Shown: positions 21,095-36,868 of the stretch, one piece after another | Numbering within the stretch: position 1 is the first letter of the stretch | Layout of the letters: every line of letters starts with the position of its first letter | Assembly: GCA_946404545.1 (NCBI GenBank) | Contig: CAMJDZ010000001.1 | Location: 124,001-188,000 of the forward strand | Length of the DNA: 64,000 nt | DNA from: an uncultured Candidatus Saccharibacteria bacterium | Lineage (GTDB): Bacteria > Patescibacteriota > Saccharimonadia > Saccharimonadales > Saccharimonadaceae | Direction of reading: 5' to 3' | The notes under the pieces: model-generated | What the model saw: only the letters and a program-made list of their open reading frames with translations | Database searches by the model: none | What the model was told of the DNA's origin: nothing | Program-made: the position numbers and the translations under genes

Positions 21095-21796
21095 ATGAGC
21101 GGACACAGCAAATGGGCAACCACCAAACGCCAGAAGGCCGTCGTCGACGCCAAGCGCGGTGCGTTGTTCACGAAAATCGGTAACCAAATCGCCATTGCGG
21201 CACGTAGTGGTACCGATCCTGCTATGAACCCGTCGCTCGCGATGGTGCTTGAGAAGGCTCGCCTTGCGAACATGCCAAAGGCAAACATTGAGCGCGCCAT
21301 TGCTCGCGTCGAGGATAAGAATGCCGCTGCTCTTATCGAAGAGACCTATGAGGCTTATGGCCCAGGCGGTGTCGGTATCATCATTGAGGTTGCAACCGAC
21401 AACAAAAACCGCACGATGCCAGAGGTACGCCACACGCTCGAAAAGAACGGTGGCCGCATGGCTGATCCAGGTTCGGTTATGTTCCAGTTCACGCGCAAGG
21501 GCGTAATCTTTACGAAGTCCAAGGGCGATGAAATCATGATGGCAGCACTCGACGCAGGCGCAGAAGACATCAATGACGAAGAAGATGGCACAACAATTTA
21601 TACTGCCGCTTCCGATTTGATGAAAGTTCGCAGCGCATTAATTGATGCTGGCTACGAGATTGACTCCGCCGAGCTTCAGTATGTGCCAAACAACACCGTG
21701 CCAGTTGAAGGCGAGACGGGCGAAAAGGTCGAGAAGATTCTCGATGCGATTGACGATCTCGACGATGTCGTCGCGGTTCATACAAACGCAGAATAA
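21095..21796 (+). CDS. yebC: YebC/PmpR family protein
   Basis: 233 residues, full-length family member: N-terminal MSGHSKWATTKRQKAVVDAKRG signature (usually KWxxIxHxKxxxDxxRG), then EAYGPGGVGIIIEVATDN. YebC proteins were described as transcription regulators and more recently linked to translation of proline-rich or stalled sequences; which role applies here is not visible. In many genomes yebC lies beside ruvC; here it stands alone before a terminator. Confidence 0.93.
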   Translation: MSGHSKWATTKRQKAVVDAKRGALFTKIGNQIAIAARSGTDPAMNPSLAMVLEKARLANMPKANIERAIARVEDKNAAALIEETYEAYGPGGVGIIIEVATDNKNRTMPEVRHTLEKNGGRMADPGSVMFQFTRKGVIFTKSKGDEIMMAALDAGAEDINDEEDGTTIYTAASDLMKVRSALIDAGYEIDSAELQYVPNNTVPVEGETGEKVEKILDAIDDLDDVVAVHTNAE

Positions 21797-21800
21797 TCTT

Positions 21801-21830
21801 AAATACCCCTCAAAAAGAGGGGTATTTTTT
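21801..21830 (+). terminator. Terminator of yebC
   Basis: Stem AAATACCCCTC / GAGGGGTATTT, loop AAAAA, then TTTTT. Confidence 0.9.
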
Positions 21831-21840
21831 ATGCGCCGGG

Positions 21841-21849
21841 TGATATAAT
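21841..21849 (+). promoter_or_regulatory. Extended -10, leaderless type, for HTH-murA
   Basis: TGATATAAT, exactly six bases before the ATG at 21856. Confidence 0.7.
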
Positions 21850-21855
21850 AAGAAC

Positions 21856-23397
21856 ATGAAGAAACAAGCAGACTACATGGTCGAAATCGGCAATGTAATT
21901 GCAATGGCACGCGTGCGCAAAGATATGACGCAGGCAGAATTGGCTGCCAAAATTGGCACCAGCCAATCCGCAATTAACCGTATCGAGCATGGTAAACAAA
22001 ACGCTTCTCTCGAGATGATCTCGAAGATTAGCCGCGCACTCGACTACCAAATTGTATCCATCAACGAAGCTGCAACGCAGGGCTACCGCATCAACGGCGG
22101 CAAAACTCTGCACGGCAGCATTACGATTAATACTTCCAAAAACGCTGCAGTCGGCCTGCTCTGCGCCGCGCTGCTCAACAAGAAGAAGACTACCTTAGTC
22201 CACCTAGCGCATATTGAAGAGGTCTATCGTATTATCGAAGTGCTCGAATCGATTGGTGTGAAGACCAACTGGATTAACCATGATCGCGACCTCGAAATCA
22301 TTCCGCCACGCAAATTGAATCTTGAAAAAATGGACATTGAAGCCGCTCGCCGCACGCGCACCGTCATTATGATGATGGGCCCGCTACTTCATCACTTCAA
22401 GAGCTTCCGCCTACCATACGCCGGCGGCTGCTCGCTTGGAAGCCGCACTGTTGAGCCACACCTTCATGCTCTAAAGAGCTTCGGCCTCGAAGTTGACGCC
22501 GTCAGCAATTCTGGTTTTTACGAAGCAAAGGTCGTCAAGCGTCCAAGCGTTGATCGTAAAATCGTACTCACCGAACGCGGCGACACCGTTACCGAAAATG
22601 CAATTATGGCCGCAGCGCTCTGCCCTGGCAAAACCGTCATCGTCGGCGCAAGCCCGAACTACATGGTCCAAGATGTTTGTTTCTATCTTCAACGCCTAGG
22701 TGTCGAAATCGAAGGCGTCGGCACGACCAACCTCGTCGTGCATGGCGTTAGCAGAATCGCTAAAGAAATTTCCTATGAGCCGAGCGAAGACCCAATCGAG
22801 GCGATGAGCTTCATTGCGGCCGGTATCGTCACGAAATCTGAAATCGAAATCAAGCGCGTGCCAATCGAATTCCTCGAGATTGAGCTTGAAGTGCTGCGTG
22901 GCATGGGCCAAAAGATGGAGATTTCCGACGAATATCTCGCCAATAACAGCCGTACACGCCTCGTCGATATTAAGCTTAAGAAATCTACTTTAAAGGCGCC
23001 GGTCGATAAGATTCACCCGATGCCATTCCCTGGTCTGAACATCGATTCATTGCCGTTCTTCTCAGTCATTGCTGCAACCGCTAACGGTCGCTCTTTGATC
23101 CATGACTGGGTCTTTGAGAACCGTGCGATTTACACGACTGAGCTTTCGAATTTGAACGCCAAAATCGAGTTGCTTGACGCTCACCGCGTCTTCGTAACCG
23201 GACCAACAAATTGGCGTCCAGCCGAGATGATGGCGCCGCCAGCGCTCCGCCCGGCCGTCGTCGTGATGCTCGCGATGCTCGCCGCTCCTGGCCGTTCAAT
23301 TCTGCGCAATACTTACTCGATTGCACGCGGCTACGAAAACTTTGCCCATCGCCTCGTGTCGCTCGGTGCGGATATTGAGCAATTATCAGATATATAA
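21856..23397 (+). CDS. murA: HTH-MurA fusion: UDP-GlcNAc 1-carboxyvinyltransferase with N-terminal Xre domain
   Basis: 513 residues. Residues 8-68 form an Xre/Cro helix-turn-helix (MTQAELAAKIGTSQSAINRIEHGKQ). From about 77 a complete EPSP-synthase-fold MurA follows. The catalytic Lys is K95 (SKNAAV) and the PEP-binding, fosfomycin-target Cys is C192 (AGGCSLGSR), with an RPVDLH-like TVEPHLH after it. MurA transfers enolpyruvate from PEP to UDP-GlcNAc, the committed step of peptidoglycan synthesis. The domains share one frame without a break and the -10 box sets the start before the HTH, so the fusion is real. It could autoregulate its own transcription or that of wall genes; this is inference. 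Confidence 0.93.
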   Translation: MKKQADYMVEIGNVIAMARVRKDMTQAELAAKIGTSQSAINRIEHGKQNASLEMISKISRALDYQIVSINEAATQGYRINGGKTLHGSITINTSKNAAVGLLCAALLNKKKTTLVHLAHIEEVYRIIEVLESIGVKTNWINHDRDLEIIPPRKLNLEKMDIEAARRTRTVIMMMGPLLHHFKSFRLPYAGGCSLGSRTVEPHLHALKSFGLEVDAVSNSGFYEAKVVKRPSVDRKIVLTERGDTVTENAIMAAALCPGKTVIVGASPNYMVQDVCFYLQRLGVEIEGVGTTNLVVHGVSRIAKEISYEPSEDPIEAMSFIAAGIVTKSEIEIKRVPIEFLEIELEVLRGMGQKMEISDEYLANNSRTRLVDIKLKKSTLKAPVDKIHPMPFPGLNIDSLPFFSVIAATANGRSLIHDWVFENRAIYTTELSNLNAKIELLDAHRVFVTGPTNWRPAEMMAPPALRPAVVVMLAMLAAPGRSILRNTYSIARGYENFAHRLVSLGADIEQLSDI

Positions 23398-35866: not shown

Positions 35867-36868
35867 ATGGCAATTGAACGCGTAATAGATACGACTTTGC
35901 ACGATGACGATAACGAAGAAAGTATCGTCGAGTTTTCTTTGCGTCCGACGACCTTTGACGAATACATTGGCCAGAAACATTTGAAGACGAATTTGAAGTT
36001 AGCGATTGATGCCGCCAAGAAGCGCGGTGATGTACTCGACCACATTTTGCTTTACGGCCCACCAGGACTTGGCAAGACGACGATGGCTGGCGTGATTGCG
36101 CACGAGATGGGCGCCAACTTCCGCGCCACTTCTGCCCCGTCGATTGAAAAGCCGGGAGACCTTGCGAGCATCCTCACGAATCTTGCGGATGGTGATATTT
36201 TGTTTATCGACGAAATCCACCGCTTGCGCCGCGCAGTCGAGGAAATTCTCTACTCCGCAATGGAAGATTACAAGCTTGATATTGTGATTGGTAAAGGCAC
36301 TGGCGCACATAGCGTGCGTCTTGATCTACCGCACTTCACTTTGATTGGCGCCACGACGCAAACCGGTAATATTGCCGGACCTCTGCGCGACCGTTTCGGT
36401 CACAGCTTCCGCCTCGAATACTATGCGCCTGATGATATTAAATCGATTATTGAGCGCTCGGCAAAACTGCTCGAAACGACGATTAAGCCGGAAGCTGCGA
36501 AGTTGCTCGCAGAACGCTCGCGTCTCACGCCGCGTATTGCAAACCGCCTCTTGAAGCGTGTCCGCGATTACGCTGATGTGAATGGCGACGGCATCATCGA
36601 CGAGCCGACGACCGAAGCCGCTTTGAAGTTACTCGAAATCGATGAGCTCGGCCTTGATCCGGCTGACCGCAACATGCTTTCTTTGATGATTGACCGCTAT
36701 GGCAACAAGCCGGTTGGTCTCAACACAATTGCTGCTCTCACCGGCGACGAAGCTTCGACGATTGAAGATTACTACGAACCATTCCTTATGCAGCTCGGCA
36801 TGATTCAGCGCACACCAAAAGGCCGCGTCGTGACCGAAGCCGCCAAAAAGCATCTCGGCAAAGCTTAA
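35867..36868 (+). CDS. ruvB: Holliday junction branch-migration ATPase RuvB
   Basis: 333 residues. AAA+ motor: Walker A GPPGLGKTT from residue 64, Walker B ILFIDEIHRL, sensor 1 LIGATTQTG, arginine-finger region GPLRDRFG, then a winged-helix C-terminal domain (LNTIAALTGDEASTIEDYYEPFLMQ). The start is set by the -10 box and by the conserved N-terminus; the frame is open far upstream through the promoter. Four-base overlap with murJ at the 3' end. Confidence 0.97.
   Translation: MAIERVIDTTLHDDDNEESIVEFSLRPTTFDEYIGQKHLKTNLKLAIDAAKKRGDVLDHILLYGPPGLGKTTMAGVIAHEMGANFRATSAPSIEKPGDLASILTNLADGDILFIDEIHRLRRAVEEILYSAMEDYKLDIVIGKGTGAHSVRLDLPHFTLIGATTQTGNIAGPLRDRFGHSFRLEYYAPDDIKSIIERSAKLLETTIKPEAAKLLAERSRLTPRIANRLLKRVRDYADVNGDGIIDEPTTEAALKLLEIDELGLDPADRNMLSLMIDRYGNKPVGLNTIAALTGDEASTIEDYYEPFLMQLGMIQRTPKGRVVTEAAKKHLGKA

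Follow-up and report, generated by a model that had tools for sequence, protein, structure and literature searches.

A MurA enzyme fused to a helix-turn-helix domain is likely to regulate its own gene in Saccharibacteria

A fused HTH-MurA gene behind a predicted operator

The window, by which we mean the whole 64,000-nucleotide stretch of DNA that was analysed, contains a gene for a MurA-type enzyme with an N-terminal Xre-type helix-turn-helix (HTH) domain, preceded by a predicted operator and, in tandem, by yebC. The features of the locus are as follows.

21095–21796: yebC, the tandem upstream neighbour (Pfam)
21801–21831, forward strand: terminator-like hairpin of the upstream yebC (sequence)
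21830–21847, forward strand: predicted operator TATGCGCCGGGTGATATA, the genus-type variant of an 18-bp palindrome (motif model)
21841–21849, forward strand: extended -10 element TGATATAAT, overlapping the predicted operator (sequence)
21856–23397, forward strand: HTH-MurA fusion gene, intact frame with an ATG start, 513 aa
21883–22053, forward strand: Xre/HTH_3 domain, residues 10–66 (Pfam HTH_3)
21958–21987, forward strand: recognition-helix stretch T35-S-Q-S-A-I-N-R-I-E44 (residue conservation among 128 homologues)
22081–23385, forward strand: MurA-type enolpyruvyl transferase domain, residues 76–510 (NCBIfam PRK09369, Foldseek)

The first-pass annotation had described an Xre HTH and a MurA fused in one frame, and this was confirmed, since both domains of the 513-aa product exceeded their Pfam cut-offs: HTH_3 over residues 15–66 (E = 2.2e-15, 56.8 bits against a gathering score of 23) and EPSP_synthase over residues 80–500 (E = 5.4e-49). 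Sequence matches in the PDB were HipB/CylR2-type regulators for the N-terminus and MurA chains for the enzyme part. An AlphaFold2 model built from an 84-row alignment (mean pLDDT 92.1) contained HTH helices at residues 4–21, 26–33, 37–44 and 52–62 together with a MurA fold, and its top PDB matches in Foldseek were MurA structures (TM about 0.9, by target). Among the matches listed, the nearest named relatives of the protein were 'Candidatus Saccharibacteria', at 82% identity.

The ATG lies 6 nt downstream of TGATATAAT, which has the pattern of an extended -10, and the orthologues start at about the same position, in agreement with the earlier claim that the start is set by a -10 box. With the element only 6 nt before the ATG, the murA mRNA is likely to be leaderless.

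The fusion is conserved throughout the order

A total of 294 genomes of the class were searched, 286 of which had a match, and a single genome from each genus was afterwards looked at again. On the conservation of the fusion across Saccharibacteria, which the first-pass annotation had raised, the result was uniform: all 102 genera examined of the window's order carried it (two of them truncated at a contig end), and the HTH was found in none of the 23 sister-order genera with a MurA match, the enzymes there being unfused. Five genomes of the window's order gave no match. The presence of the fusion in every one of these genera, and elsewhere, rules out a chance fusion or an assembly artefact.

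A survey of the phylum (332 genomes) supplied a further 17 HTH-bearing members, all from beyond the class, and 18 members of the subfamily that lack the HTH, and a scan of named genomes yielded at least 80 loci, comprising at least 41 titled Actinobacteria and at least 39 Saccharibacteria or other uncultured records. Three observations from these surveys are recorded here. A contig titled Candidatus Nomurabacteria (JAITNW010000005.1, L389) encodes a MurA 77% identical to that of the window, and its label may be wrong. The unfused MurA of the sister orders (L112–L131, L150, L151) has Asp at the position of E. coli Cys115 in 20 of 22 cases, which we take to be the fosfomycin-insensitive form. 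One HTH-less subfamily MurA (L528, G939:C11:30919-32208) lies in a 693-codon open frame, possibly a different fusion.

An invariant recognition helix and a palindrome at the murA promoter

Where the first-pass annotation had regarded a variable recognition helix as speaking against DNA binding, this helix proved to be among the most conserved parts of HTH-MurA: the SQSA stretch (S36, Q37, S38, A39), E44 and Q26 are invariant in all 128 fused homologues, and T35 and R42 are present in 123 and 126 of them, respectively.

When 128 upstream regions were searched with a Gibbs-type method, a single dominant motif emerged, TATA(T/C)CAT-NN-(A/G)TG(A/G)TATA. This is an 18-bp palindrome of the TATATCAT-NN-ATGATATA type, lying over the murA promoter near the ATG, and its right half is the extended -10 box, which precedes the ATG by a few bases, so that part of the conservation of this half-site is that of a promoter. 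The exact pattern TATAYCRYNNRYGRTATA was present in 137 of the 199 genomes of the family, against 9 for the reversed control. The left half-site of the window's genus departs from the palindromic form and reads TATGCRY; the genus pattern was found in 43 of 45 genomes and its reversed control in 0 of 45. Within the window, the site at 21830–21847 was the top match, with 26.0 bits under a model built without the window's own site, and a genus model that included this site gave a window maximum of 25.7 bits, compared with at most 19.3 bits in 40 shuffles. Matches at 36420 and 63898 lie inside genes and look like chance. Symmetric positions of the palindrome, 6/15 included, displayed no covariation beyond column composition within the order. 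Seven loci of one family (L276, L278, L279, L280, L282, L283 and L284) apparently have two palindromes upstream of murA, some 60–75 bp apart.

An invariant recognition helix together with a matching predicted operator at the gene's own promoter makes DNA binding by an intact HTH well supported. The first-pass proposal is thus supported in part, for the enzyme as a DNA binder; its link from wall precursor to transcription would further require that binding depend on a ligand.

The site accompanies the HTH

We scored an operator model, trained on the order only, over 200 bp upstream of each gene with a threshold of 10 bits. The order loci, which are the training set, had a site in 122 of 128 cases. 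Held-out HTH-bearing Patescibacteria had one in 14 of 17 cases and in both of two newly fetched ones (16/19), compared with none of 18 HTH-less loci of the same subfamily and none of 16 newly fetched ones (0/34; Fisher p = 6.5e-11, relatedness not corrected for). The unfused murA genes of the sister orders likewise had no site (0/22). With a threshold of 5 bits and the nearest 85 bp, a site was present in 140 of 145 HTH-bearing and 2 of 40 HTH-less loci. The HTH state changes at least 8 times on the tree, and for the HTH-less label well-supported branches require 5 changes. Among the 4 independent pairs of HTH gain or loss on such branches, the site goes with the HTH in an average of 3.8 of 4 (sign test p = 0.125, which by itself is not significant).

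The three held-out misses consisted of two variant sites accompanied by the substitution S36T and one replaced recognition helix. Residue 36 is Ser in all 128 order sequences; among the 17 tabulated held-out loci it is Thr only in L269, L270 and L271 and Ser in the others except L281, in which the recognition helix is replaced and no operator site is present. The three S36T loci are exactly the three of these 17 with a TATAGCAT half-site, the sites of L269 and L271 being of the TATAGCAT..GCTATA type. Six of the 128 order loci scored below 10 bits within 200 bp; two of these (L019, L021) had their only candidates, of about 12 bits, at -874/-877. Good sites lie farther out in L104 and L273, at -102 and -116. 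One locus counted as HTH-less (L299) has an in-frame segment that resembles a diverged HTH, unrecognised by Pfam, and has no site.

Gene and predicted operator in Actinobacteria

In the 41 listed actinobacterial loci that we examined (65–73% GC), a palindrome of the form TATCTCAT..ATGAGATA, or a variant of it, stands roughly 10 bp upstream of the ATG. It is kept in 40 of them, 39 fitting the variant pattern and L430 being the 40th, and one half is diverged in the 41st, L463. The core ATCTCANNNNTGAGAT occurred in 30 of 38 actinobacterial genomes, which sum to 324 Mb and contain no copy of the reversed control; it was found once per genome except for two genomes with one extra site each, and 29 of the 30 core-pattern loci returned sit at HTH-murA, the remaining one (L510) being an extra site. 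At L510 (G900:C4:283544) and at G894:C11:13209, ATCTCAACGTTGAGAT is present twice, nearly in tandem, ahead of a MarR-like frame in Streptomyces; this pair is probably the site of another regulator.

Both HTH_3 and EPSP_synthase were detected by Pfam in the three actinobacterial members tested, and in the one locus tested for its neighbourhood (L446) the divergent neighbour of HTH-murA is a gene for aconitase. The actinobacterial proteins form one clade (support 100/100) within the clade of the Saccharibacterial family (100/99), with weak support for their exact sister inside it. This nesting is most simply read as a transfer out of Saccharibacteria, and HTH-MurA with its operator seems, from these sequences, to have crossed a single time between Saccharibacteria and Actinobacteria (L419–L463). 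Saccharibacteria are reported to grow on actinomycete hosts (PMC12173739).

Other candidate targets

In the window's genome a FemAB-family gene (Pfam PF02388, 1.6e-29) has a second site, G000:C4:31153-31170, 2 bp upstream of it. Among the FemAB orthologues of the 45 genomes of the genus, gathered by protein similarity and not by motif, 17 of 24 had a site of at least 14 bits at an upstream distance of 2 to 39 bp, oriented opposite to that at murA; two of the remaining seven had weaker sites (8.5 and 9.1 bits) and five had none. No site was found at FemAB paralogues (0/6). Paralogue stretches at G000:C6:9470-10420 and at similar places in the genus contain one in-frame TAG in several genomes, which may be a gene boundary, as the genome search reads through stops.

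The murB gene has a site of its own in G033 and in G377 (L327), shares one with a divergent murA in L272 and L275, and, among three further genomes of genus g5, has candidate sites in L365 and L366 and none in L364. As a general target murB was rejected: only L205, L272, L275 and L327 hold, and most murB genes examined have no site. A large regulon in the window's genus was rejected as well, most of the other genus-pattern matches examined falling in coding sequence, and a noncoding-RNA explanation of the other sites was not supported, Rfam having returned only two tRNAs in 19 loci. In two loci of one genus (L204 and L209, in G187 and G118; sites at 1510 and 2008) a palindrome lies 16 bp before the gene of a related protein, which is about 440 residues long and resembles a hydrolase.

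A proposed autoregulatory circuit

The conserved fusion, the invariant helix, an operator that tracks the HTH and the parallel change of helix and operator together point to a trigger enzyme. From this sequence comparison we consider it likely that HTH-MurA is autoregulatory, a MurA that doubles as a transcription factor and represses its own gene at the 18-bp palindrome. The N-terminal HTH, probably as a dimer, would bind the palindrome over the -10 box and the start of murA, and the bound dimer would obstruct RNA polymerase; in some lineages HTH-MurA may also bind at other wall genes, namely the FemAB-family gene in the window's genus and murB in a few others. We infer direct binding, dimerisation, and repression over activation, the last because the predicted operator covers the -10 next to the start of a probably leaderless mRNA, a position from which a bound dimer would keep the polymerase away. 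Autorepression is thus the likely mode.

In a further step, occupancy of the active site by a sugar nucleotide and/or PEP would alter DNA affinity, so that wall-precursor supply would set the expression of murA. Such sensing is plausible, and more weakly inferred, deriving from the domain architecture and from the analogy with BirA. The complete version, in which occupancy by sugar nucleotide and PEP switches operator affinity and meters murA and other wall genes, and in which the module also passed from epibiont Saccharibacteria to Actinobacteria, we hold tentatively, as a possibility that falls somewhat short of probable.

It is also quite possible, though not what we would expect, that HTH-MurA is a simple homeostatic autorepressor, whose HTH sets the enzyme level without any ligand and whose MurA domain serves catalysis and perhaps dimerisation. 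All the comparative evidence on binding fits such a ligand-free protein, and the site is nearly confined to murA in the 38 actinobacterial genomes, but a pure autorepressor leaves the FemAB-family and murB sites unexplained, and the choice of an enzyme that changes shape with its substrate as the partner of an HTH is suggestive, as an argument and not a test.

The enzyme domain and its nucleotide pocket

The window protein passed the NCBIfam model of the MurA subfamily PRK09369 (327.9 bits, cut-off 297) and scored below the cut-off of the murA equivalog TIGR01072 (305.1 bits, cut-off 392.7). The active-site residues K95 and C192, which the first-pass annotation had reported as kept, align with K22 and C115 of E. 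coli MurA and are present in 128 of 128 fused homologues. Nine residues that we take to have catalytic roles (K22, N23, R91, C115, R120, D305, R331, R371 and R397, E. coli numbering) are invariant in all 163 subfamily members and kept in 41 of 41 listed actinobacterial proteins, and on these residues we reject a degenerate enzyme. The window's genome (94.6% complete) has no EPSP-family match besides HTH-MurA, and murB is present in 271 of the 294 genomes of the class, this one included. With its catalytic residues invariant, no other MurA in the genome and murB present, HTH-MurA is probably the working MurA of this genome, and an active enzyme.

The uridine site is different. Canonical MurA contacts uridine through residues 120–124 and 160–163 (E. 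coli numbering), and this set is not retained in HTH-MurA, R120 being kept and P121, L124, K160, V161, S162 and V163 being changed. Nearly all subfamily members have other residues at P121, K160, V161, S162, V163, E188 and D369, and at P121, K160, V163, E188 and D369 this applies to all 163 members tabulated and all 41 listed actinobacterial proteins (P121 by T/S; K160 by E; V163 by D, or N/E in some; E188 by N/D; D369 by P, S or other residues). Judged from these replacements, the nucleotide pocket is unusual, with a remodelled uridine site, which lowers the confidence that its ligand is ordinary UDP-GlcNAc. The substitutions are common to subfamily members with and without the HTH, and a regulatory adaptation is thereby ruled out as their explanation. 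The five replacements without exception would also suit a protein that is not a UDP-GlcNAc enolpyruvyl transferase and that uses, or only senses, another nucleotide sugar. We think this unlikely, given the nine invariant catalytic residues, the lack of a second MurA in the window's genome, the wide presence of murB in the class, and the equal change of HTH-less members, which separates the remodelling from regulation.

Other explanations of the palindrome

Two further readings leave HTH-MurA out of the palindrome. A symmetric bidirectional promoter, shared with a divergent glyA and bound by no protein operator-wise, would account for the right half being an extended -10; the upstream gene is indeed divergent in 107 of 128 order loci (by the longest upstream ORF), and the one divergent gene checked encodes serine hydroxymethyltransferase. 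We nevertheless regard this as very unlikely: the last -10 position of the divergent strand is not enriched (A 0.36, background 0.35), the site is also present in the window, where the neighbour is the tandem yebC, it is reversed at the FemAB-family gene, it is found in GC-rich Streptomyces with a half-site of no -10 consensus, and where there is no HTH there is no site. That some other Xre regulator binds the palindrome, the HTH of MurA being a relic that does not bind DNA or a domain for protein contacts, is highly improbable: the genomes do hold a few further small HTH proteins of weak similarity, but the conserved residues are those expected to face DNA, and the site is missing wherever the MurA HTH is missing, changes with S36T and accompanies the gene in Actinobacteria.

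Discussion

HTH-MurA, as an autoregulatory enzyme, would have known counterparts. BirA consists of an HTH and a biotin-protein ligase, and its control by ligand is known. BirA too joins an N-terminal HTH and a metabolic enzyme in one chain and has its operator at a pathway promoter, with a dimer on a palindrome; it differs in its HTH subclass and its enzyme, both unrelated to those of HTH-MurA, and in that its ligand control is established. The predicted operator of HTH-MurA would act mainly on the gene of the enzyme itself. Trigger enzymes such as PutA and NadR resemble HTH-MurA in that an enzyme doubles as a transcription factor of its own pathway, and HTH-MurA likewise has an enzyme and a DNA-binding domain in one chain and a predicted operator at its own pathway. 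Compared with canonical MurA (E. coli, PDB 1uae and others), HTH-MurA has the same fold and catalytic residues, and differs in its changed uridine site, its added HTH and an identity of only 24–29% in structural alignments.

A member of this family may already be familiar from Streptomyces. In the part of the source consulted, S. coelicolor has two UDP-GlcNAc transferases; one is MurA2 (SCO5998), which lies beside aconitase (SCO5999) and is treated there only as the second such transferase (PMC12161575). The aconitase neighbour in L446 and the domains of the three actinobacterial members indicate that MurA2 (SCO5998) is very probably the same protein as HTH-MurA. According to the sections available of two other papers, murA2 of S. 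venezuelae is a ChIP target of WhiI, its overexpression having failed to mimic the whiI phenotype (PMC11005364), and SCO5998 has a SigB-dependent promoter (PMC8346170); the accessible portions of PMC12565409 and PMC7739484 held nothing relevant. Searches of the open-licence literature gave, among the entries read, no paper that describes a MurA with an HTH or the operator reported here.

The comparison indicates that the fusion is ordinary for its lineage, and that what is new is its likely DNA target and, with it, a probably self-regulating cell-wall enzyme. What is known of how bacteria adjust the making of wall precursors to supply concerns mainly enzyme activity and proteolysis. Precursor sensing would be the most interesting step of the proposed HTH-MurA circuit. 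Whether MurA reads its own promoter can be decided at little cost, the predicted site being short, specific and found almost only once in each actinobacterial genome. Gene and operator are apparently common to epibionts and to the phylum of their hosts. If the reading is true, a single protein would form a feedback circuit at the committed step of wall synthesis, and this circuit would span a whole order of tiny host-dependent bacteria as well as the antibiotic-producing Streptomyces.
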